A stretch of DNA of 64,000 nucleotides, taken from assembly GCA_011316305.1 (NCBI GenBank), contig SAUG01000023.1, positions 1-64,000 of the forward strand, given 5' to 3'. Below are positions 47,530 to 63,416 of this stretch, one piece after another. Source of the stretch: Rusavskia elegans. Taxonomy: Eukaryota > Ascomycota > Lecanoromycetes > Teloschistales > Teloschistaceae. Each line of letters begins with the position of its first letter. The first letter of the stretch is position 1. The position numbers were made by a program, and so were the translations under genes. Below the pieces are notes generated by a model, which did not search any database, was not told where the DNA came from, and saw nothing but the letters and a program-made list of their open reading frames with translations.

Positions 47530-48230
47530 TTGACTGGTCGATGGATGAGGGGGGGATACACTTCGATCTGCCGTGCAAAAGGTTCTCGGATCCATTGTGA
47601 GTCTAAGTTCAATACTTCGGTGGAGAAAGGCAAGATACTGAGGGATGGGGGAATATTCGAGGATTGTGACTTACATACTTCACGGGGGGGAGGGAGGTAT
47701 CTTATATCACACAATGTTTCTCAATGTTATGAAAATCGTTCGCTTCGATCCATCTAGTGGTACCTCTTTGGGTTATCCATGCGATGCTGAGTGGTGACAG
47801 AAAAGTTTTGCGACAGACGGAGCGCATGGACGACCTGAAGAGGTTTAGCGACGCATGGGCGACTGAGAAAGGCTAGACCGAGGGTTCTGCCAAGCCACCT
47901 TAGCCGAGCGCGAATCGCACTCGATAAGGTAAGGCTGACTGCAGGCCAAAGATCTCATCCAATCATACTCTGGCATTTGTTCCGCGCTACGTCATCTTGC
48001 CGAAATGATACGAGTACGTCAGATAGGAAATCTTTTACTCCCCCTACATCCCGACAACTTTGGCGAACTATGAACGCTACACCAGGGTACTGAATAAGAG
48101 CATCATGCCTTCCAATCTGTGGTCTGAACTTTGTTTGGCGTAAGACAGACAGCAATCCATCTCACTGCATGACAATGACTCGACGTGGAAGAGACGGAAG
48201 AGCATGAATCCACTCCAATCTCTCTGAACG
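47530..48230. other. Divergent promoter region
   Basis: Lies between the DUF2306 gene and the Zn2Cys6 gene, transcribed away from each other; should contain both promoters and the unplaced first exon of the former. No repeat is seen. Confidence 0.5.
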
Positions 48231-49786
48231 ATGGTGAATCCTGGCAAACCCTCGGGTGCTTGCGAGCTTTGTCGCAAACGTCGTATCAAGGTGAGATGCC
48301 TCGATCCAATCCCACTTCATGGCTGAGCCACGTCCAGTGTGATGAAGCAAAGCCGACTTGCTCCTATTGCCTGAAAAGGCAACTCCCATGTTGGTTTCCC
48401 AGGTCACAGTTCGAGGTCGCCTGGAGAGATCAAAATCGAGTGGCAAGCAATGCGGTCCAACGCCGATTGAACGCCAGGGACAAAGCCATTCCCGATGCTG
48501 AGCGCTCAAGCAAAGAGATGACCAGGCCTGACACCTTCAACGTCCCACGCGTCCTGCCACAGGATCATGAGCATTATGCTCTCACTTTCTTGTTCAACTC
48601 TTACCTTCTGCCGTCAACCCTCTCGAACCATCAGGCAGGCTTTCTCGGATGCGTGTATCCCGTCTGGACCCAGGCAGCTCCTTCATCGCCGCTGCGGCCC
48701 GCTGTCAATGCCGTAGCTCAGGCCTTGTTGGAGGCATGGTCATATCTCAATCCAAATGCACCCCAGTCTTTAGCCCGAGCGCACTATGCACAAGGCGTTG
48801 TGGCCGTTAGACGACAGTTGCAGAATGCCGAAGATATCGACGACGACCTTCTGTTGGCCACCCTTCTGCTGGATATGTACGATGGAATCAGGTCCTTCTG
48901 TGGAGCCCGGCCTCATGAAGGTCCACACGTGAGAGGAAGTGCGGCTATGATCGAGAATCGACGAAAATTACCCGTCAACAGCAAGACTTCTCAGGAGACA
49001 TTGTTAGGGGTACGTAGCCGCATTGTGGGCGATGCACTTCAGAAAGGGGAACACGTCTCGCCAAATGTCCTTACTTGGACAACAAGCATACAGAGCAGCC
49101 CTAGAACGCCGGAACTCGATCTCGAAACGATTAATATTGAAGTGGCTAACCTGCAAGTTTCGGCGTTGGGACTGAAGGCTAATTCCGCAGGGGTGGCAAG
49201 GTTGGGCTCAGAATTACTTACCAAAGCCAACGAGCTTGATGAGAGACTTATCGCATGGGCCGCAACTCTGCCTGAAGAATGGATCCCTCATTGCATCGTG
49301 GGTTCTGAGACCCTTCCCCGGAGCATCCGCGACGCGGGCCTGTACCAAGATCACTGCACTGTCCACAAAAGTATATGGACCGCCGATGCTCTCAACATAC
49401 ACTGTTGCTCGCACATCAAGATCAAGCTCGTAACCCTAGCCTGCCTGGAGTATGTGACACAGTCGGCGGCGGACGCTACTCGGACGAACGCCCGCGCCAC
49501 TTTACAGGGCTTGGCCGACATGGTCTGTGCCAGTGTCCCCTTTTATCTTGGAGACAGAGTCGAAGTCCGACGAATCGATGATAGAAGTGTAAAGTACCCA
49601 CAACCTGGAAACAGTGTCACACCCGATGAACATTACGTTCCAGCGGCTGCGTACGGTGGGATGCTCCTCATGAAAAGACTTGTGGAGCTTCTCAAGCTAG
49701 GGCCACATCTGCGAGCGGGTCAGCAACAATGGATTTTGGGGCAAATGGGACGGATCAAGAATATCTATCTCGCTAAACCGGCATGA
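48231..49786 (+). CDS. Zn2Cys6 transcription factor
   Basis: ATG 48231 and a 47-bp intron (48291-48337, GTGAGA..GTCCAG) put the Zn2Cys6 cluster together: CELCRKRRIK-CDEAKPTCSYCLKRQLPCWF, with the exact C-x2-C-x6-C-x6-C-x2-C-x6-C spacing at residues ~10-37. An intron inside this motif is common in the family and fixes the start. The product has 502 residues; the rest (LPQDHEHYALTFLFNSYLLP, LEAWSYLNPNAPQSLARAHY, LLLATLLLDMYDGIRSF) resembles the fungal-specific regulatory region of DUF3468-type factors. It probably binds CGG-containing promoter sites. It sits 1.6 kb upstream of the GMC oxidoreductase and 8-15 kb from the isocyanide-type genes, so a cluster regulator is possible but unproven. Confidence 0.92.
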
Positions 49787-51426
49787 GCTATTCTGCTAAT
49801 CAACAAGAGTGCGTTGGCTCTCAGAGATCTCCCATGAGTTTGGTTCCTAAAGAAGCTGACAATCCAGGGAAAGCTGAGACATAAATGAGATCAATCAGCA
49901 GGAGGTCCACCCCCATGTCTAGGTCATTAGTAATAACCGCACGGTGGCCCAGCCGAACAACCATTGACCTGCTGAGCGTCATAACTAGGCTTTGGGACAA
50001 TTGTCGGTGGCGGCGGTTACCAGTCATGATCGACAGTATCGATATTGTCGCTTGAACCTGCCATCGCCAAAACCACAACAGCGCAGGATTTTGATACCGC
50101 CGAGTGGCAACCGACTCAAGGGTGTATGACTTATCACATCTCCCCATTCTTGCCGCGCCCGCCACCTTGCAACGAGCTTACGAGATCCGGTCAATGTTGC
50201 TTAGGCCGTGTTGTATACTTTGTTGCCATGCGCCTTTTCTTCAAGGTAGGGCAAGCTTGGGAGGATGTACCTGTGGTACCTGTCTACAGGATGAGAGAGG
50301 AGTAGTAAGCGGCAGATGTTCAGCATCATTCTCCGTGGCAAATTCATGACCCAGCCGGACATAGCTCTCAAAGGGCTATGGTGACAAAGAGAAATCGAAA
50401 TTGGGGCTTCTCTTGGTGCTTGCCTTCCCTCAATTCTGCCGGAAGGGCCGGAGTCTCCTGTTGCATCCATATTGACGGTGGAGGATCGATCCAGAAGGGT
50501 TCTGGATGTTGCAAGGAAGAAAGACCATAGGATCGGATTCTCCGGAGGTATTAAGATGCGAAAGCGGGTTGTCTTTCGTCCACAGTGGCTGGGACGGCCA
50601 ATCAGCTGAGCGAGAGCAGCTGAAGTCAATGATTCTCTCCATTGACCAATCCGAGCGCTGCAGACGTCGCGACGATATTCGCGCAATCTTCTCCTCTGGG
50701 AGAGTATAGACTTACGGCCATAGGCACATCGACAAATCTGGAGGCAGCATTCCCAGACAAACGGTCTAGGAACGGCGAATAGCAACGTGGGGGTGGGCAT
50801 GTAGTGCAATCTGGACTGTTCTCATCCTCCGCCCGGCAGGAAGCGGCAATCTCGAAGGATCCGGCTTGATCCCATTAGTTTCCAGATCTGTATATATCCC
50901 ATGCAGCTAAAAGTGAAGGGCCTTTCATCGTGTCTGGTTCGATGGTCATATTTGATATTCCCTCTGGTTGAAGGCATTACGAGATATCAATATCGATCCA
51001 GCCACCGTCTCTTCGTTACTAGAAAAGACCGCCGTTACTTCCGTGGAATGTGTGGCCGAGAGGATCATGACTTCCTGCCCATGTCTCGCTAGTAGGTCGC
51101 TGATTCCACTGCAGCGATAGTGGGCAGGTGGGCATACAAAACGGAAAAAATGGAAGGAGCGATGGATCAAGTCGTTCCAAATAAAATTCCCCTTTGTTCT
51201 TCCTCTCAATTCTTCCATCTCTCATCGTTCACTACAATTGCTTACAGCTTTCGCGACACACTGCCCGAGTTACACCTCAAGCAGATATTGTAAGTATCTT
51301 TTCCCCTCGCATGTTCACATTCTGAGACTCATAGGACCTCGCCCACTGCAATTCAGCTCATCACTGCATCAGCACCAGGCCCTTCCTTTGTTGTGTTCGT
51401 ACCCATCTGCTTATCCATCTTCGACC
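49787..51426. other. Intergenic upstream of the GMC oxidoreductase
   Basis: About 1.6 kb. A 202-codon minus-strand frame (50809-50201) is present but lacks any recognisable domain and has irregular composition. The part just before 51427 is C/T-rich with GTATATATCC at 50889, suitable for a promoter. Confidence 0.4.
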
Positions 51427-53416
51427 ATGCTTGGACCCGTAATGTCCCACCCTAGCCGGCTACTGCTCTTAATCGTCACGGCAACAATTGCTGTAGCATA
51501 TCCGGACAGATTTGCCAAACCCTGGGCAGCTTCCTCACCCTGCAAAGATAATACCTTTGACTATGTGGTCATTGGTGCCGGTACGGCTGGTCTGACACTT
51601 GCAGCCCGACTGGCAGCAGGCTCCTCGTACAGCGTGGCTGTCATCGAAGCTGGTGGCTATTACGAGCAGGACAATGGCAACATTAGTGTCATCCCAGGTT
51701 ATGCTACCCAGTTCTCTGGGACAGATCCTACCAACATCCAGCCCTTGGTCGATTGGGGGTTCGTGACCGTGCCTCAGAAGGCAAGCCATGCTCCATTCTC
51801 AAGATCCGTTCAGTCTTGACATTTTCCTGACCAGGTCGATAGGGAGTTGATGGCAGACGGTTACACTACACTCGCGGCAAAACTGTTGGAGGAACCTCTG
51901 CCAGAAACTGGCTTTACTACCAACGGTGAGCTCCGATCTACCCTGCTACTGACAATCTCTTACGCCCTCTAGACCCAATGCCGGCTCGCTAGACAAGTGG
52001 GCAGATGTGGCTGGCGACGACAGCTACAAGTTCAGAAACCTTCTTCCATACTTCAAAAAGAGCGTCCAGTATACTCCACCAGTCATTATCGCTTCGAACA
52101 GCACGAATAATCAAGATCCCAACGCCTGGAGTCCAACTGGTGGACCGCTACAGATCTCTCACGGCAATTTTGTTGATCCCTTCGGCACATGGGTGCAGCC
52201 AGCAGCTGAGAAACTTGGTATGACGCGAATTGACGGCTTCCAATCGGGCAAACTACTCGGAAGCGCCTATGTGCCTTTTACTATCGATCCGAAGAACCAG
52301 CAGCGATCATCGTCTGAGTCTAGCTTCCTGCGGTCGCTACCTCAAAAGGCTCGCCTTCAAGTCTACGACCATACTCTTGCCCAGAAAATTCTTTTTGATC
52401 GACGCAACACAGCTACGGGGGTCGTCGCTTCATCCAACAACATCGTGTTTACCCTCAAAGCTCGGAAAGAGGTTATCCTATCCGCCGGCGTCTTCCAATC
52501 CCCTCAGATCCTTATGCTTTCCGGTATTGGTCCGGCATCTACTCTCGCCAAACACAACATCCCTCTTCGCATTGACCTCCCAGGAGTCGGTTCCAATCTT
52601 CAAGACCATCCCTGGTTCGGGACCGATTTCCGTGTCAACGTCCCTACAGCGTCCTCATTGCTAAACAGCCCCGCCGTCTTCAGCCAGGCCCAAGAGGCCT
52701 ACAACAAGTTTGCCACCGGCCCTCTCACTATCCCAGCCACCGGATTCCTAGCTTGGGAGAAGGTACCACCCACTCTTCGATCGAATCTCTCAGCATCAGC
52801 GATTCACATACTTGATACTTCCTTCCCCGCCGACTGGCCGGAGCTCGAACACATCCCTATCAATGCTTACATTGGGTATCAACGCAACTATCAGAAGGAA
52901 GATCCTACCGACGGGTACAATTACGGAACCGTTGCCACCCTTCTCGCCGCACCACTTTCTCGTGGCACCGTATCGATCTCCTCCTCCAATCCTGCTGACC
53001 CTCCCCTTATCGATCCAAACTATCTCTCTCATCCTGTCGACGCAGAGATTGCCGTAGTCGCTGTCCGCCGCCAGCGTGACTTCTGGGCCCAGATGAAAGG
53101 CGTCACTGTTGGGGATGAGGCACTACCGGGCAAAAACGTGACAAGCGATGAGGATATACTCACGTTCGTCAAACAGAGTTTGGGCATTGCTCCACATGCT
53201 GGATGTACGTGCGCTATGGGGAAGAAGGGTGTCGAGGGGAGTGTGGTCGATAACAAAGCACGCGTCTTCGGTACGCAGGGCTTGAGGGTCGTTGATTCGA
53301 GTATCTTTCCGCTTTTGCCTCCCGGCCATATTACGGCTACGGTCTATGCGATTGCGGAGAAGATTGCTGACGATATTCTGAGGGGAAAGGGGAATGGGCG
53401 GGGGAAAAGATGGTAG
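51427..53416 (+). CDS. Secreted GMC oxidoreductase (FAD, aryl-alcohol/glucose oxidase type)
   Basis: Exons 51427-51780, 51843-51925 and 51973-53416 give 626 residues. The first intron (62 bp) uses a GC donor (GCAAGC) and the AG at 51842; only this choice restores GVDGRRLHYTRGKTVGGTSA. The N-terminus is a signal peptide (LLLLIVTATIAVAYP), so the enzyme is exported. Then DYVVIGAGTAGLTLAARL (FAD GxGxxG), the GGTSARN motif, the second GMC signature region ILSAGVFQSPQILMLSGIGP, and near the end HAGCTCAMG and SIFPLLPPGHITATVYAIAE, holding the usual catalytic His and second His/Asn region. It would oxidise an alcohol and make hydrogen peroxide. Substrate unknown. It may act with the neighbouring oxidative genes, which is inference. 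Confidence 0.92.
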
Positions 53417-53708: not shown

Positions 53709-55733
53709 TTACATACAATATTTACGCTTGTATTCCCTTCCGGTATCCTTCAAATCAGCAGCAAAGCACGGCTCCACCAGATTCCCTTTCCACCCTTTCT
53801 GTCGGTGACTCGTCAATCCCAACTGCTCCAACAGCGCATCCGCGTAATCCACCACGTCAAAGTAAAACCAGCTGCCCAGCTCCCCTTTGTTTAGGTAGCG
53901 TCGTCGATCCCATGCCACGGTCTCGGCAATTTCTTGCTCCATTTGAGAGCGAGTGGGCAGGTTGCGGATTTGACCGTCGAGATAGGCGACTGACCACAGT
54001 GCTTGGATTTCCGCGGTGCGGAAATTGTTGCCGACGACCATTTTGCCGAGAAAGACGATGGAGTGGGTGGGATCGGAGGGAGGGGCGATGGCTTTGTAGA
54101 GGCGGAAGGGCGTGTCGCTGGGTGCGATCTTGCGGTATGCAGGTGGATGCTTGAGGGCAGGGAATTGGGATAGGATGGTGGGATCGGCGGCCTTTTCGAG
54201 GGCGGACCAGTAGGCTTGTGTTTGGGGGTCGGCGGAGTTGAGAGGTACTGGGAGGCCGAGTTCGAAGGCTTCGTGGGTTGGAAAGAGGGTTGATTTTGCT
54301 GACCACCCGGTACAGTAGACTAGGACGTCGATGGGTAGGGTCAATGGCTTGGATTCTTGAGTAGAGCCGCTGCGGCGAGCTTTGAGGGTTATAGAAGCTT
54401 CCGAGAGATGGGATATGTCTCTCCGATGCACGTGAACGTTCTTCGCGATGGCGGATAAGAAGTCGGGATGATTACAGACACCGGAGCTGTCATTTTGCCA
54501 AAATATTCTGGAAAGTGTCAATGTCTGCAACTGGAAGCATCTTCGGGTTTAGGGGGTACCTACGGTGTGTCATACTCCAAATTCGCAAATCCCATCTCTT
54601 TGCCTTCCTCCCGTTGATAGTCATGGAACTCCCTCAGCCCTTTGTCAAATCCATCCCATAAGCGCTTGACATACCACCGCCCGAGAAAGTTGCTCTGCAA
54701 TAACCATTTCAACCATCCCCACGTATTACCAAATCGATTGGGAAGAAAACTGGCGAGGAATCTGTTGTAGAATCCTTCATTCGAGTTCGCATATTGCTCC
54801 GTCATGGCTGGAGCGACGAAGAATGCCGAAGGTCCGTTACCGTCCTCCCGGATGATCCAGTGGATTTTTCTGCTCACGGGCGCTTTTGCACATGCGTAGG
54901 CTACGTCGGCGGCGGATTTGGCGCCGCCGATTATGCAGATGTTTTGCACTGATGGATCCTCGAGAAGGAGGGTTTGTGACTGCCCGAAGGATTTGTGGTG
55001 GAGAGTTCTGCCTTTAAAGTCGGAAGAACCGGGGAGGGTTGGGATCTGGGGCTGGGAGGTCATGCCGGTTGCGTCGATGAGTTTGGCGGTACGGACTTTT
55101 CGATTTCCGTTGTAAGTGATTTCCCAATTTGCGCCGTCGGCGGTATCGGCTGCTTGGATTTTGGTAATGCTTTCGACGTAGGAGTTGAATGAGATGCGGT
55201 CTCGGATAGTTTGGCCGGAGTAGGTGTGGTCGTCGACGTAGGATTCGAGGTAGGCGGTGGTGTATTTCCCGGGAAAGAAGCCGTAGTATTGTTCTGGGGG
55301 TGGTGTCATGGGTCGATCTGAGAATTCGGCCATTCGGACAGGAGTCTGTGTCCAGAAATCTTTGTAGATTCGTTCTGAAGAGATGAGTCAGAATAGAGAG
55401 CATGGCAGCTTGTTGCTTGTTTTGACAGATCCGTTGGTATCGCTGGTCATAGTTGCAAAGCACTTTGTAAAGAGTGTGGTATGTACATTCACGGAGGGCA
55501 TGGAAGGAAGAGCGAGACAGACAAAGGAAGTGGGCGTACTTGAGCTCCATGTCCCACCTACGACGTCGTCGCTTTCGAGTAGCAGCAACCTGGCATCAAG
55601 ATGGATATCCAAGTAGTAGCGTGCTGCTTGTATACCGTATAGACCTGGACACACGTAGATGGTTTAGCTGATGATTACAGTCGTACAACGATCGTCTCAG
55701 CTCACCCGTGCCAATGATTACGATGTCGTACAT
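53709..55733 (-). CDS. Flavin-containing monooxygenase, NADPH-dependent
   Basis: Exons 55733-55706, 55644-55540, 55374-54564 and 54507-53709 join to 580 residues. The first intron splits the FAD site (MYDIVIIGTG-LYGIQAARYY). The third exon has KRIYKDFWTQTPVRMAEF, YFPG-type FFPGKYTTAYLESYVDDH, LIDATGMTSQPQIPTLPGSS and the NADPH Rossmann NICIIGGAKSAADVAYACAK. The last exon holds VLVYCTGW, the counterpart of the FATGY motif, and IVFLGKMVVGNNFRTAEIQA. The 165-bp second intron is long for the locus. It should hydroxylate N, S or C centres or run a Baeyer-Villiger oxidation. Its position 1 kb from the isocyanide synthase 3' end, on the same strand, makes it the best candidate for an extra tailoring enzyme. 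Confidence 0.9.
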
Positions 55734-56702: not shown

Positions 56703-58935
56703 CTAATTGATATGAATGCGCCACAGTTCCCTTCCCGTCCCGGGAGTAAATGCCGTACGTGTATGCATCATACTCACATTATCCGCGACGAGAATATCTC
56801 CCTGCTCGAAATTGAAATACAGGCACACGCGGCGATCGTACAGCATCTCCCTGATCATATCTTTATAATGCTGTTCACCGTTGCTGATGCGGATTTCATT
56901 GGTGCTGAACTGTGTCATCCATTTGTACCACGGTTCGTGCCAGCGGATGCAGGGTTTGTTGTTTGTAGGGTGAGGGACCACGAGCGGGAGATCTGTCATG
57001 TGGTTGTCCCAGTTGGAGCTGTGCTTGCAGTCCCACTTCAATTTTTCAAGCTCGGAGAGAGTGTAAGGGGCCGGGAGGTGCTGAAAGAAGAGCCGGGAGC
57101 TTGCGAAGAGGGTCATGCCGTCACCGGGCGGGGAAGGGGTGATGGCGGTGAAGTATTGGAAACGAGGGACTTTTGAAACCATTTTTTCGACGCCGTCGAC
57201 GATTTCTTTTTTGAGGAAGAAGAAGCCGTCGTAGTGCATGGGCATCGCTTCGGTCGAGGTGACAGTGCTGGCTTTTGGATCCGGGTTCATGGCGTCTTTG
57301 ACGGATTGGCGGATGCCGAAGGTCCAGGGCTGGACGGTGCCGGCGTCGTAGGCCTTGGCTTCGAAAGTGTGCTGGTCCGTTGTGTCGGTGAAACCGCGCA
57401 GGATGACGGGCGAGCAGGCTTCGGATAGAGCGCGGACTTTCTTCATGTGCACGTTGTGGAAGGAGTACTTTGTGGAAGGGTCGCGAGGGGTGATAACGAT
57501 ACCCGTCGGGTAGATGTAGTTGAATTCGACGTCCATGCCGGGCCAGTTGAAGAGGTCCGAGCGCTCTCTGAAGTATGAAGGGCGGCCTTCTCGGTCGAAG
57601 ATTAGTTCGTGGGTCAAGGCTGGGACGGATGCTGAGTGGCTCATGGTGATGGATCCATCGACTGCTCGAACGAGGGCAGCGTGCCACGGGGTGGAGCTGC
57701 GGCCGAGCTGCGGAATGATTGCCATGGAAAGCTTGTTTTGCTCGGTAGATGCGTGGATCGACAGCCTGATATGGTCTGCAAGGTTTTGGGCAATGGAAGT
57801 TGCGAATGCCTTCCCGCGCACAATCATCCTTTTGGCCGTAGCCTCATATCGCTTCTTCATCTGTGCCTTGGTCTCGCCCGCTCCCTGGCTCGCCAGGTCT
57901 GTCTCCAAAAACTTGATGTAGCCCCGATACGTGAGTGTGGTGTCAGCATCTTTCGCGATGTACGCGTCGGCGTCGAAGCCCTCGGGAAGATATCTGGTCA
58001 AAAGCTCGTCTCGGAACAGAGGGGCGGCTTTCAGATACTCTTCTTCATTGATTGGTTCGTCGGATCTTTCTCCCCCGAGCAGGTTGCCGAGGCGGAGGAA
58101 TTGGACGTGATCACACCCATGATCCTTTGCCATTTGGCGGAGTGCCTGCCCATACCGCCAGACCTCTAAGTCAGAGATACCGAGAATGTCTAGAGCCATA
58201 TTAGTCATTGCTTAGAATTTTAGGCCTGAGATCCTTACCGTTGTACATCAAGCCGTCAGAGACAATGTAGACATTGGCACCTGGCTCATATACATCCCCG
58301 ATGGCAAGGCACAGGCCCTCGAGATGGGAGAGGGCAACTTCTTCACCCTTGCCTGGGAGGGTTCCCAGGACCTTGGTCTGCTTGTTGGGGGATTTGAAGG
58401 GAAAGGCAGGGAGTGACATGGAAACAGCCTCGCCTCGGACAACGTACCGCTCGACCTGAGCGAGGAACTTGGCCTTGGCACCCCATTGTTTGCTCGTATC
58501 ATTCTGATGAACGAGACGATATCTTGCAAGGACTCGGACAATGTCTTCAGAGATGTCGGCTACGGTCCTTGGTGTCGGCGGTTTCTTGCCGTCATACGCG
58601 ACCTCGACATCTTCGACTGGTTTGTTTTCTTCTACTGGTTTAGTGTCGTCTTGCAGCGCGGCGGTAAATGGTTGTTCCACTTCGATAGCTGGGGTGGAAA
58701 TAGACGCAATTCCTTTAGCCAACTTCTTTCGGACGGCTAAGAGGTGCTTGTCGGAAACGCCAGAGTCCAACTCAACAGTACTCCTCGTACTACTGGTCTC
58801 GGCATCGGAGGCGGAGTCATGTTCAGATATGTCGCTCTCGACCGGCCTGGCCGATACCTCCGGGACTTTGAGGAGGATTGATTTGTTGTCCGACTCAGGG
58901 AATGGGGCCAGAGAAACAACAGCGGGTGCAGACAT
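56703..58935 (-). CDS. Isocyanide synthase-TauD dioxygenase fusion (DIT1/PvcA + TfdA), XanB-like
   Basis: Exons 58935-58239 and 58189-56703 (49-bp intron, GTAAGG..CTAG) give 727 residues. Residues 1-~115 are acidic and Ser-rich. The DIT1/PvcA domain (~120-430) has VRGEAVSMSLPAFPFKSPNK, KVLGTLPGKGEEVALSHLEG, YEPGANVYIVSDGLMYNDIL and LEVWRYGQALRQMAKDHGC, which is the isocyanide synthase signature (converts an amino acid amine to an isonitrile with ribulose 5-phosphate in characterised enzymes). The TauD/TfdA domain (~440-727) has VILRGFTDTTDQ, the iron ligands His551-x-Asp553 (AMPMHYDGFF), distal His708 (DNVSMMHTRTAF) and Arg723 (WRIHI) for 2-oxoglutarate, so all expected ligands are present. 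The domain order matches fungal XanB-type proteins. Tyrosine as substrate is likely by analogy with xanthocillin and yeast DIT1 but unproven. Confidence 0.92.
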
Positions 58936-59658
58936 GGTGAATTGAGGTTGAAGAGCTGGAAGAGAACGTCAAAGGGGAGTTGCTTGAACAGAAGGAGTTT
59001 GTTGATCATCGGAAGGGAATTATCCTCCATGGCCTTCTTATACCAAACAAGCTTCTTAGAAGGTAGCAGTCAGGAACCCTGACACACGTTGCCCTTACGC
59101 TTTTCTCGGATCGATATGCTATGTGGCCTGGCACAGACCTGCTCAACTTACACGTAACATGTAAGCATCACTCAGCGTTACGCCAGGAGCATCGGCACCT
59201 CGTTGCTTGAACCTGAATGGATGTAGTATTCGTCTATTCCTTCCACAAGAAGATAAATCTTCGAGTCAGTGGAGGCGTGGTTACCAAGGCGGCGCCCTCC
59301 GGGGCGTCGATTTTGGTTACGTGTCAGCTGATGGCAGTCTTCCATCAGCCTCTTAACCCACGGTTTAGCTATGACTCTCCAATGAAGAGCCTCACATGAT
59401 CAGAGTCCTCAACTAGCGAGCTGGTGAGGGTCGGCAGAATGCTAAGGAATGCGTGGCTGGCTGCAAATCAGCATTAGATATCCGAGTATTCGAGGAACAG
59501 TAGTCAGATTTTAGTATGGAACTTACACACCGACGACAGCAACAATACACAACAGTCGCCGTGCACCAACCCTGGAAATTGGATAGGCTTAATTTGCAGG
59601 CGCCTGGGAGTTAGCATGGGCACCATAAGGATTGGAAATGCATGAAGGCTGAAGTGCC
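58936..59658. other. Promoter region of the isocyanide synthase, with a diverged repeat
   Basis: The synthase promoter lies next to 58936. A block at 59334-59411 recurs, diverged, at 60640-60716. At 59140-59145 there is one TGCTCA word, part of the Mac1-type copper-response site, but with the wrong flanks. Confidence 0.5.
59341..59411. repeat. Diverged direct repeat, copy 1
   Basis: The core CCACGGTTTAGCTATGACTC plus about 30 following bases matches 60664-60716. Differences seen are mainly C/T or G/A (CTCCAATG against CTCTAACG, CATGATCAGAG against CATAATCAGAA). Confidence 0.85.
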
Positions 59659-60278
59659 CCTGGCTCTCGCGTTCTCGACAACGCTTGCGGAACTGGGATT
59701 GTCATCAGAGAGCTTCTCAAGACCTACTCAGACGTTCACATTGATGCTGTCGACTATTGAGACGGCATGCTGGACGTTATTCAACCCACGCTACAGCAAA
59801 ATGGATGGACCGACCGTGTGACCGCCGCCAAGATGAACGAGTTAGCTTGCAGTTCGAAGATGGGATTTTTGACGTCTCATTCAACAACTTTGCCACTTTC
59901 TTCTTTGCCGACCCAAACAAAGGTGCCAAGGAGCTCTACCGAACCTTGAAGCCCGGTGGTGCGGCTTGTCTGACAGCGTGGGAATACTTTGGATGGTTGC
60001 CAGTGTTACACGACATCCAGAAGACGGTCAAGCCGGAGGATCCGCCATTTGGTGTTCCAATGCTTGCCAAGTGGCACGAAAAAGAGACGATGGTGGAGAC
60101 GCTCAAGGCTGGAGGATTTCTCAGCTCCAGAATGCGGATGTCGTTGCAGGGGGTCATGTATCTTGATGACAACGTTGAGGAGCTCGCCACGTCTTTGACG
60201 GGTTTGATGGAGCCAATGATGAAGGGGATTTGGGATCTTGAAGATCAGGGCGGGATGCGGGGGGATGAAGGATTGTAA
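59659..60278 (+). pseudogene. SAM-dependent methyltransferase relic (class I)
   Basis: At 59659 the plus strand reads PGSRVLDNACGTGIVIRELL, the SAM-binding motif I, then YSDVHIDAVDY, an in-frame TGA at 59758-59760, and DGMLDVIQPTLQQNGW in the same frame. Near 59845 the frame shifts by one (about one base missing) into LQFEDGIFDVSFNNFATFFF, ADPNKGAKELYRTLKPGGAA and WEYFGWLPVLHDIQKTVKPE, the post-I and motif III region, ending at 60278. No ATG precedes motif I. The two lesions plus the missing start indicate a pseudogene. An intact member would methylate a small molecule; an O-methyltransferase is part of the Aspergillus xan cluster, so loss here would change the product. An intron explanation was checked but no splice pair restores the frame. 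Confidence 0.78.
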
Positions 60279-60527
60279 GATCAGGATTGAATAGAGAAGA
60301 CAGGGTTGGCGACGAAGGCCCCTCTGGTAACCGATCTTAGAGATGCCTGGGCTGATTACTTCAATAGTTTACAGACAGAAATCTTCGGATGGAAGCTTCG
60401 GATACGATGTATGTGGACTGTGATGCTTGAGTTAAGCTTTAGGTCCCACCCTTGGTTCTTCACCGTCTTCCCTTGTGAGATAAGCCCACAGCGCGCTAGG
60501 TCTACTGTTGTAATCAGCGGTGATGTT

Positions 60528-60582
60528 GCATCCATCGGCCGCCAAGAATACACCGCTTCTGGCTCAGGCCCAACGGTCAGCC
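60528..60582. repeat. Duplicated segment, copy 1 (partner 60858-60953)
   Basis: GTTGCATCCATCGGCCGCCA then AGAATACACCGCTTCTGGCT and CAGGCCCAACGGTCAGCC match the second copy at 60858-60953, which contains an inserted 10-bp tandem array and several single-base changes. Confidence 0.8.
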
Positions 60583-60656
60583 TTATATCCATCAGCCTTA
60601 TATCCATCAGCCTTATATCCATCAGCCCTATATCCATCAGCCTTATATCCATCAGC
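60578..60656. repeat. 15-bp tandem repeat, five copies plus a partial
   Basis: The unit TCAGCCTTATATCCA repeats from 60578 to 60652, with one copy TCAGCCCTATATCCA, and ends in a partial unit. It lies in the spacer between the methyltransferase relic and the P450. It is a minisatellite rather than a CRISPR, as there are no spacers. Confidence 0.95.
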
Positions 60657-60663
60657 CTTTTAA

Positions 60664-60716
60664 CCACGGTTTAGCTATGACTCTCTAACGAAGAGCCTCA
60701 CATAATCAGAACCCTC
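60664..60716. repeat. Diverged direct repeat, copy 2
   Basis: Second copy of the 59359-59411 block, about 1.3 kb from it, in the same orientation. See copy 1 for the differences. Confidence 0.85.
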
Positions 60717-60870
60717 ATCGGCAATAAAGGTGGTTCCACCCTTGAAGATATTAACTATGCAGTCAGATATTATCCTAGAGGTCAGCAAAGATAACTAAAG
60801 TTCTACTGGGCCAAAGTTTCCGTACTCCGTAAGCTTATAATCCGCCGCGATGTCCACGTTGCATCGGTCG

Positions 60871-60910
60871 CCAAGAATGGCCAAGAATGGCCAAGAATGG
60901 CCAAGAATGC
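60871..60910. repeat. 10-bp tandem repeat, four copies
   Basis: CCAAGAATGG repeated four times (last copy ending in C). It sits inside the second copy of the duplicated segment, where copy 1 (near 60541) has a single CCAAGAATAC. Confidence 0.95.
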
Positions 60911-61687
60911 ACCGCTTCTTCTGGCCAAGGCCCAACGGTCAGCCGCAGGTCAGCCGCATGAACGAGACCCGCAACCACCGCAGCCCTAAACGAGAGCCTC
61001 ACTGTGTCTTTGCATATTGTCTTTTTCAAGGTCAATGTAGGCTATGTATTGCTGGCGCTACTAGCACCTTACCCCCATCCATCACGGCCAGATGGTCTAT
61101 AATCTCGCCCTCGAATTGTAGCAATAGCCAGGGCTGCGGTTGTCGCCCATCGTATCCGGCAAATGTTACCTACCTGTTGCCGGTGAGTCCGGCTACAGCA
61201 AGCCTCATTGTTATCTCGAAGTGGGTCAACCGGTGGGTCAACCGGTGGGCCTGGGGCCTGACACTAACATAGACGATTAATCAGCTCGCCTCAAAGGATT
61301 GCCACTCCCTGCAGTGAGCTGACTGCGCTAGATGCTTCTTCTTGGGAAAACAACCCGATACCAGGCTGCGGCTTCATCTCATCAGAGCTGATGCATAAGG
61401 CCTGACTAAAGATTGGTGCCAATGTGGCCATCCGGCCATTCGGTAAGCTATTCCCAAATCTCCCAAGCTGCCTTGCTCTGTGAACCTCTCAATTTCCTTT
61501 AGGGATATCTTCCGGAAAACATCCAGACCGAAGTGCCTTGTCTGGCAAGCAGCGTAACAGATATCACCACTCATGTCAACTCATAGTTTCTAAGTCGTGC
61601 CCCGCATTACGTGTTTAAGCGGCTACTTGGTGCACTGCCAGCCTGAATCTACAACCCTTCAACCCGCTCTTTCCTTTGAAAATTCGG
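60911..61687. other. Upstream region of the P450
   Basis: Between the repeat block and the P450 start. No coding-like frame. Contains the 12-bp repeat and presumably the P450 promoter; a C/A-rich leader (CTACAACCCTTCAACCCGC) precedes the ATG. Confidence 0.45.
61221..61249. repeat. 12-bp tandem repeat
   Basis: GTGGGTCAACCG occurs twice, followed by a partial GTGGG, in the P450 upstream region. Confidence 0.85.
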
Positions 61688-63416
61688 ATGGCTTTCGTAA
61701 CTGCTGTAACCCTTGGACTATGGTGCCTTGGGCTACTTCTCTGGTGGAAGTTTCATGTCCCCTCCAATCTCCCTAGCAACCTTCCAAAAATCCCCGTCTA
61801 TGTGTCATTGTTGGGCCTCTGGAGCGACTTGGGCCAAGACGAAATCTATGATCGCTGGTTGCGAAAGCCCCTCGAACAACATGGTGCGGTCAGGTTCTGG
61901 TTTGCAGGCCGATGGAGTATTCTCGTCATCAAGCCCCAGTATCTGACTGATTTGTTCCGCAATGAAAATATGTATGCGAAAGCCGGGAATCAGAAGAAGA
62001 TCCCATGGAGCGTCATGGCCTCGCTTCTTGGTGACAACATTATTAGCTCTCATGGGGACAACTGGAGACTCTACACTTCGATTATGAAGCCAGGGATGAC
62101 CAAACGTAACTTTGATTGTCGGCCACTCGTTAACAAGTCCCGAAAACTGGTGGAGCTCCTGCTGCAGGCCCAATCTCGTACCGCGGCTGGCAAGGGTGTA
62201 GTGATCAACCCGTTCATTCTTCGATACGCCATCTCAGTCATGGGCCAGAGTTTCCTCGATATTGACTTTCAGGTATATTTCATCCCCCCAGCAGTGCGTA
62301 CGGTTGTCCGTAGCTAAAGTGTGTGACAGTGCCTTGAGGACCAAGAGAACCCAATTATTGAGTTACAGACCACCATAAAGCGATCGATCTTCAAACCGTT
62401 CTACATGAACTTTCCGGTCGCTGATAAATATCCCGCACTTTTCCCTTCCAGAAAACGCGCATTCACCCTGGTCAAACGATTCGAAAGCCTTCTCTGTGAG
62501 CTTATCCGGGACAGACCCCGGACAGGATCAGAAAAGAAGCACCAATCAGAAAGTGACCAAGTTGTTCATATGCTAGAACAAGCCCTAAAGGAGGGTAAGA
62601 TCACTGAGAAACAATACCGGGACAATCTTAAAATCACCTTCATCGTCGCCCATGAGAACACGCAACTGCTACTCAACTCCATGTTCTACCAGATCGGCAT
62701 CGACCAGGTTTGTTACCTAAGCCTTATAGTCATTGAGTGGGAAGACTGACAAGCACCAGCAAGTTCAAGACAAACTACGCGACGAAATAAATGCAACAAG
62801 AGTTGCGAATCCGACGGCCGACACCGTCAACAAGCTCCCTTATCTGACCTCTGTAATCTACGAGCTACTCCGCCTTTACCCCCCAATCTCGCAACTCACC
62901 AACCGCGTTGCCGAATCCGACGCTCTCCTGGGTGACACCGTTCCCGTACCCGCTAACACGTACATCGGCTGGAATGCTTACGGCGTCCACACCTCGTCTG
63001 CTAACTGGGGCCCGGACGCCGAAGACTTCATCCCCGAACGATGGGGCTTAAGCGTGGAGGAAATGCAGCTGAAGTTCAGGAGAGATACGATCAGAGGCAC
63101 TTTTATCCCGTTCAACGCACATACGAGGAAGTGTTTGGGACAAGCGTTCGTGTTGCTGCAAATGAAGATCGCTGTCTTCGAGTTGGTACGGAGTATGCGA
63201 TGGAAGGTCGCTCCGGGGTATAAATTCAAGTTGCCTGGAGTGAGTATTCCATCTTGTCCGAATGGAATCAGGGATAGATACTGACATTCATAGGCTGGCG
63301 TGCTTGCACCTGTGGGGTGTCGGATTGTCTTCGAGGAGATTGAAATCCGCGGCCAGGTTTCCGAGGCTGAATCTGCTGACGATGGTGTTTCTTTATATGA
63401 CGGCGGTGATCTCTGA
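61688..63416 (+). CDS. Cytochrome P450, CYP56/XanG-like (dityrosine/xanthocillin type)
   Basis: ATG 61688; exons 61688-62272, 62330-62707, 62760-63239 and 63294-63416 (introns 57, 52, 54 bp) give 521 residues. An N-terminal anchor (FVTAVTLGLWCLGLLLWW) places it on the ER. WRLYTSIMKPGM corresponds to the helix C W-R. The I-helix reads IVAHENTQLLLNS (302-306 AHENT) in place of the usual AGxDTT, as in yeast Dit2 (CYP56). The K-helix ExxR is Glu356-Arg359 (YELLRLYPP), then FIPERW and the heme motif FIPFNAHTRKCLGQ with Cys446. Yeast Dit2 couples two tyrosine derivatives and XanG performs the matching coupling in xanthocillin biosynthesis, so phenol coupling of isocyanide units is the likely reaction, by analogy. 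All catalytic motifs are intact. Confidence 0.92.

Follow-up and report, generated by a model that had tools for sequence, protein, structure and literature searches.

A xanthocillin-type gene pair with a broken methyltransferase in the lichen-forming fungus Rusavskia elegans

The first 64,000 bases of contig SAUG01000023.1 of Rusavskia elegans, here called the window, hold a real and conserved two-gene unit of the xanthocillin (xan) type with a broken methyltransferase. The locus has three parts: an intact synthase on the minus strand, in which an isocyanide synthase (ICS) is fused to a TauD dioxygenase, a broken methyltransferase gene on the plus strand and an intact cytochrome P450 gene of the XanG family, also on the plus strand. 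We read it as a minimal xan-like pathway in a lichen-forming fungus that leads to an unmethylated xanthocillin-like bis-isocyanide, and we hold this reading with a probability of about 55%. The contig (C135) is 91,868 bases long, and the genome searched comprised 44.2 Mb in 217 contigs. No description of this locus was found in the literature searched. The papers cited by their PMC numbers were available in excerpts, and our statements about them refer to these excerpts.

The synthase, the P450 and the methyltransferase relic

The features of the locus, with the evidence for each, are as follows.

56703..58935, minus strand: XanB-like ICS-TauD synthase of 727 amino acids, exons 58239-58935 and 56703-58189 (spliced translation, Pfam, homologues, fold)
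58190..58238, minus strand: synthase intron of 49 nucleotides, GT..AG (alignment to homologues runs through the splice site)
57603..58455, minus strand: isocyanide synthase domain PF05141 (DIT1_PvcA), amino acids 161-428, split by the intron (Pfam)
56715..57473, minus strand: Fe(II)/2-oxoglutarate dioxygenase domain TauD, PF02668, amino acids 472-724 (Pfam; presumed iron ligands H551, D553 and H708 present)
57216..57218, minus strand: codon of F557, equivalent to K107 of PIsnB (alignment; meaning of the position from PMC9467999, excerpts)
58351..58353, minus strand: codon of G195 (alignment)
59656..60263 (about), plus strand: methyltransferase relic of the Methyltransf_11/25 type (homology blocks, two frames, one in-frame stop)
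61688..63416, plus strand: XanG-family cytochrome P450 of 521 amino acids, exons 61688-62272, 62330-62707, 62760-63239 and 63294-63416 (spliced translation, Pfam, trees)

The bounds 56703 and 63416 given in the initial annotation are the outer ends of the two genes, with the stop codons counted in.

The two exons of the synthase are read without an internal stop, and the intron borders are intact. The DIT1/PvcA-TauD fusion that had been proposed was confirmed by Pfam, which found both domains (E 3.8e-89 for DIT1_PvcA, E 3.4e-21 for TauD); together with PF00067 in the P450, all three profiles named in the initial annotation matched in the expected genes. With NCBIfam, the PvcA model reached 110 bits, far under its cut-off of 600, and two dioxygenase models matched weakly. 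By sequence comparison, the synthase matched the solved structures of PvcA, PIsnA, PIsnB and PvcB. When an AlphaFold model (mean pLDDT 80.8, below 50 for residues 1-109) was compared with the PDB, the best 11 matches were all PIsnA/PvcA and PIsnB/PvcB chains, with PIsnA/PvcA ahead. Residues H551, D553 and H708 we take from family knowledge to be the iron ligands of the TauD half.

Protein searches were evaluated for the best 120 matches each, of at least 275 (synthase) and at least 219 (P450) that passed the threshold within a capped set of candidates. Among these, the closest relative of the synthase was from Xanthoria aureola (89%), followed by Wetmoreana, Teloschistes and other Teloschistaceae. 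The synthase is 46% identical to XanB of A. clavatus; when A. clavatus xanB was used as the query on the genome, the identity was 47-51%. A PF05141 profile search of the genome returned one gene, the window synthase, which the xanB query confirmed, and neither search found a second isocyanide synthase elsewhere in the genome.

The P450 gene has four exons with an intact frame (PF00067, E 8.8e-48), and its best match among those evaluated was from Xanthoria mediterranea (93%). It is 57% identical to A. clavatus xanG, compared with 38-42% for the Dit2-clade proteins among the matches listed. A tree of 119 P450 sequences was computed after P0222, P0225 and P0226 had been omitted by length, and 56 of the 119 were analysed with IQ-TREE. 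In the full tree, a Dit2 side of 24 members excluded the window P450 with a Shimodaira-Hasegawa-like (SH-like) support of 0.97. In the IQ-TREE analysis, the 12 sampled members of the Dit2 side formed a clade with an ultrafast bootstrap (UFBoot) of 100, again with the window P450 outside. Support for the wider XanG group was weak (40 members, UFBoot 38).

The motifs agree with the trees. The heme loop FNAHTRKCLG and the I-helix AHEN of the window P450 are XanG-side forms. On the Dit2 side, the heme loop reads FHGGxRACLG in 22 of 24 sequences, whereas on the side of the window FNAH[STKA]RKCLG occurs in at least 61 of 95, counting the six commonest forms. The I-helix reads AGHENPQ in 13 of the 24 (no pattern match in 11) and A(S)HENxQ in 83 of the 95 (no pattern match in 12). 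Database names are misleading here, since several proteins that are labelled Dit2, among them those of Zopfia, Bisporella, Delitschia, A. udagawae and A. indologenus, fall outside the 24-member side.

The P450 had been described as CYP56-like with a Dit2-like I-helix but is of the XanG type rather than the Dit2 type. The locus had been described as xanthocillin/dityrosine-type, of which the first half was supported: an ICS-TauD synthase lies beside a XanG-type P450. Since the P450 groups with XanG and not with Dit2, the dityrosine type is rejected and the xan type is supported; membership in a dit-type cluster is rejected on the P450 phylogeny and motifs. Dit2 and XanG are homologous, and units derived from tyrosine are coupled in either pathway (PMC5974471), which speaks for a dityrosine-like wall component as the product. 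Against it stand the position of the P450 outside the Dit2 clade, the XanG-side motifs, the two-domain synthase and the arrangement of the synthase and the P450 on opposite strands, pointing apart. We consider such a product very improbable.

Three further P450 sequences were observed. A second XanG-side P450 (L006, G000:C32:132084-133484) is a single open frame with 42% identity to the window P450, and the PF05141 search found no synthase on its contig. A P450 fragment with PF00067 (L004, 5433-6089) lies downstream on the same contig as the gene pair, about 15 kb away. In Penicillium hispanicum, a XanG-type P450 is fused to a DJ-1/PfpI domain (P0157), which is either a real fusion or an artefact of the gene model.

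Between the two genes of the window, homology to a methyltransferase covers about residues 70-272 of an intact relative of 306 amino acids, while neither end of that protein matched at the relic. The relic noted in the initial annotation is real: it is spread over two frames and contains one in-frame stop, and Loekoesia has, by locus tags, an intact copy between the same two genes. In place of a functional methyltransferase, the window has this relic only. In the methyltransferase protein search, 7 of the 16 candidates matched; they came from Loekoesia, Caloplaca ligustica, Fulgogasparrea, Botryotinia and three others. The search of the genome for an intact paralogue elsewhere returned only distant matches (28-38%). 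A direct repeat of 59 nucleotides (88%) is found at 59353-59411 and 60659-60717, one copy on each side of the relic, and short tandem arrays lie nearby (15 nucleotides x 5.5 at 60577-60659; 10 nucleotides x 4 at 60870-60909).

The linkage of the pair was followed in relatives. Loekoesia sp. 1 has the synthase under the tag Q9225_001721, an intact methyltransferase under 001722 and the P450 under 001723, each listed with a contig of 59,237 bases. The synthase and P450 tags are directly consecutive in Blastenia, cf. Caloplaca sp. 1, Ikaeria and Trapelia; in relatives with consecutive tags the methyltransferase is absent, broken or unannotated. Judged by locus tags and equal-sized contigs, the pair is linked in five of the six assemblies from Teloschistaceae and Trapelia that had both genes among the best 120 matches. 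In the sixth, Wetmoreana, the P450 is on a separate contig of 4,993 bases. Trapelia joins the Teloschistaceae in the synthase tree (SH-like 0.96) and in both P450 trees (SH-like 0.984; UFBoot 95). The gene structures, domains and fold class, the P450 family, the methyltransferase break and, by locus tags, the linkage in relatives are shown by these data.

The proposed product and the dioxygenase pocket

For the pathway, we infer the substrate, the course of the reaction, the coupling and a binding of copper. The first half of the synthase would form an isonitrile from an aromatic amino acid, of which L-tyrosine is the most likely, and a carbon of ribulose-5-phosphate, and the fused Fe/2-oxoglutarate half would desaturate the side chain. 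The XanG-family P450 would then couple two units to a xanthocillin-type bis-isocyanide. With the methyltransferase broken, the phenols would stay unmethylated unless an unlinked enzyme acts on them. Deletion established the role of XanB, and XanG has been proposed as the coupling enzyme (Lim 2018, PMC5974471). These two have been named as the enzymes essential for xanthocillin, and the methylating XanE/XanF are missing from P. expansum (PMC8406171).

Several points weigh against a xanthocillin-like product. The window synthase is not grouped with the Aspergillus/Penicillium XanB proteins (50 and 69 sequences, respectively, with midpoint rooting). Its F557 stands in for the K/R that accompanies vinyl-isonitrile formation in bacteria, and its G195 replaces a near-invariant D, to which X. 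aureola adds K181R. Both DJ-1/PfpI genes found, which are of the isocyanide hydratase type, lie on other contigs (C170 and C141), and no linked isocyanide hydratase (XanA) was found. The gene on C170 matched the XanG-fused DJ-1 domain of P. hispanicum weakly (43% over 42 amino acids, 32% over 84). The XanC motif of A. fumigatus, AGTCAGCA, occurs 0 times in the window, compared with 2.1 expected by chance; this is weak evidence, since known xan clusters carry the motif patchily themselves, with 13 sites for 23 promoters of Aspergillus and 11 sites for 54 of Penicillium (PMC8406171). The gene pair alone is also no proof of production, since P. expansum has xanB and xanG but gave no xanthocillin when xanC was overexpressed (PMC8406171). 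Finally, an isocyanide from the Teloschistaceae was not found in the literature searched, including the excerpts of PMC9907504, PMC12711211 and PMC11923404. Given F557 and G195, the xanthocillin type of the product is uncertain.

The synthase phylogeny suggested in the initial annotation was computed against XanB, with no Dit1 sequence placed in the tree. It contained 119 sequences and was midpoint-rooted; P0011 (short, chosen by hand) and P0047 (length filter) were omitted. The 69-member group holds the Aspergillus/Penicillium XanB proteins and many others, and the 50-member group holds the window synthase and also one Cladobotryum protein named xanB. For P0049 the label A. fumigatus XanB is ours, from its position beside named xanB proteins; the database entry reads hypothetical. 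Within the 50, the window synthase falls in a clade of 27 members (SH-like 0.999) that comprises lichen fungi, some Xylaria and Nemania, Halenospora and Ophiocordyceps. The residue that corresponds to PIsnB K107 is F in 24 of these members and Y in 1, with no data for 2, so that F/Y is found in 25 of 25 with data. The other 92 synthases have K in 77, R in 4, V in 3, N in 1, P in 1 (the alignment is irregular there) and no data for 6, which gives K/R in 81 of 86. When the ICS half alone was used and the marker column was thereby excluded, a tree of 59 of the 119 sequences, rooted by XanB-side members and without the truncated P0041 and P0055, regrouped all 25 aromatic members (UFBoot 88). In two of the ICS-TauD proteins, P0030 (a second copy of Trapelia) and P0046, the dioxygenase half had no visible HxD iron motif in the alignment.

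In bacteria, K/R at the K107 site and N/H at the N188 site mark vinyl-isonitrile formers, and L together with C marks isocyanoacrylate formers (PMC9467999). In the bacterial orthologue PIsnB-Ah, exchanging the two residues singly left the product profile unchanged (PMC9467999). A joint change of M105-Y106-K107 led to a loss of ligand binding (PMC9467999). The window synthase has F557 at the first position and H650 at the second, of which only H650 matches XanB. Because the window synthase combines the two, the product cannot be predicted from the selectivity positions.

These data bear on a second explanation, in which the F/Y557 dioxygenase changes the outcome or the substrate, so that an isocyanoacrylate or a non-tyrosine aromatic unit is formed, and the P450 acts on a product that is not xanthocillin-like. 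The split between F/Y inside the clade and mostly K/R outside it, the recovery of the clade from the ICS half and the bacterial pattern, including the cost of the joint change, argue for it. However, the companion residue H650 is as in XanB, the single exchanges in PIsnB-Ah had no effect on the products, the UFBoot of 88 is moderate and the partner P450 is still of the XanG type. We regard this explanation as possible, with the odds against it. We also put forward, tentatively, that the F/Y-marked ICS-TauD branch may make a different kind of isocyanide and that in the Teloschistaceae and Trapelia, where it is joined to a XanG-type coupling P450, a new coupled lichen isocyanide could result. 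The branch was not found described as such in the literature searched.

Residue 195 and the conservation of both enzymes

The initial annotation had stated that all visible catalytic residues are present. The window synthase keeps the consensus at each of the 64 positions with a conservation of 99% or more in the alignment of 119 sequences, which supports the statement. It is qualified by position 195, which is G in the window synthase and in X. aureola but D in all 116 other sequences with data; PvcA and PIsnA also have D there in the alignment. In addition to G195, the X. aureola synthase (P0001) has K181R where 116 of 116 others with data have K, a possible sign that the Xanthoria synthase half is eroding or shifting.

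The synthase half of the Xanthoria lineage could have lost activity or be reduced in it, alongside the loss of the methyltransferase, with the open frames persisting. That G195 is common to the window and X. aureola and absent from Wetmoreana, that K181R follows in X. aureola and that the methyltransferase is broken are in line with such a decay. The reading frames of both genes are intact, however, as are their intron borders, the 64 conserved positions are kept and conserved sites are still spared in both enzymes. Between the window and Xanthoria, 2 of 107 conserved sites of the synthase differ compared with 42 of 486 elsewhere (p 0.013), and for the P450 the numbers are 0 of 66 and 31 of 427 (p 0.014), both modest values. 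Between the window and Wetmoreana, the sparing gave p 0.0002 for the synthase and p 0.0005 for the P450. Since G195 directly precedes helix 196-215 in the AlphaFold model, it may be a helix-cap change, and glycine is often tolerated at such a place. G195 may thus be a tolerated change or a sign of decay; a decayed synthase half we consider unlikely, and a working xan-like pair is the reading that we prefer.

Neighbourhood, meaning and known systems

Beside the synthase, upstream of the gene pair, lie a Zn2Cys6 frame at 48179-49783 (plus strand), a GMC oxidoreductase at about 51121-53413 (plus strand) and FMO-like flavin monooxygenase frames at 53709-55387 (minus strand, provisional at the 5' end). 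A wider cluster with these three is possible. A carboxylesterase frame is found downstream of the gene pair. The annotated lack of a nonribosomal peptide synthetase (NRPS) or polyketide synthase was borne out in the neighbouring frames that were scanned, a part of the frames of the window, where no such domain occurred.

It had also been argued that standard cluster searches could miss the locus. This was true of the tools of 2018 (PMC5974471), but a lichen survey of 2025 names isocyanide synthase among the cluster classes of lichen-forming fungi (PMC12711211), so that at survey level the class is already known in lichens. A wider count found 4,341 ICS genes in 3,300 genomes, with ICS-TauD making up 36.2% at one genome per species (Nickles 2023, PMC10153163).

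Polyketides dominate most accounts of lichen chemistry. If the xan-like pathway is conserved across the Teloschistaceae, it would bring a class of reactive, metal-binding compounds into a symbiosis that grows slowly and is exposed to algae, bacteria and metals. The methyltransferase, intact in Loekoesia and broken in the window, predicts that O-methylation differs between related lichens. The F/Y clade offers a direct and inexpensive test of what decides how the desaturation ends, which the work on bacteria did not settle (PMC9467999).

Among the known systems, the crm cluster with CrmA, an ICS-NRPS, shares only the PF05141 domain with the window synthase, to which no NRPS-like domains are fused. 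The yeast DIT1/DIT2 pair also sets an enzyme of the isocyanide synthase family beside a P450 of the same broad group, but Dit1 is a single-domain protein (PMC5974471) without TauD and the window P450 is outside the Dit2 clade. The bacterial pairs PIsnA/PIsnB and PvcA/PvcB have the same two folds, the conserved ICS loop and the presumed iron ligands; the window synthase differs from them in being one fused protein, with F at the PIsnB K107 position and G where PvcA and PIsnA have D. From the xan cluster of Aspergillus fumigatus and relatives, with XanB, XanG, methylation by XanE/XanF, the XanA hydratase and the XanC regulator, the locus differs by a synthase of the other group, by F557, by DJ-1/PfpI genes that were found unlinked and by the lack of a XanC motif in the window, with no genome-wide search for XanC relatives made. 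It shares with xan an ICS-TauD fusion that adjoins a XanG-family P450, and a methyltransferase, though a broken one. Because the pair is related to that of xanthocillin, the third gene is broken and one active-site residue is unusual, the product of the locus is probably a related isocyanide.

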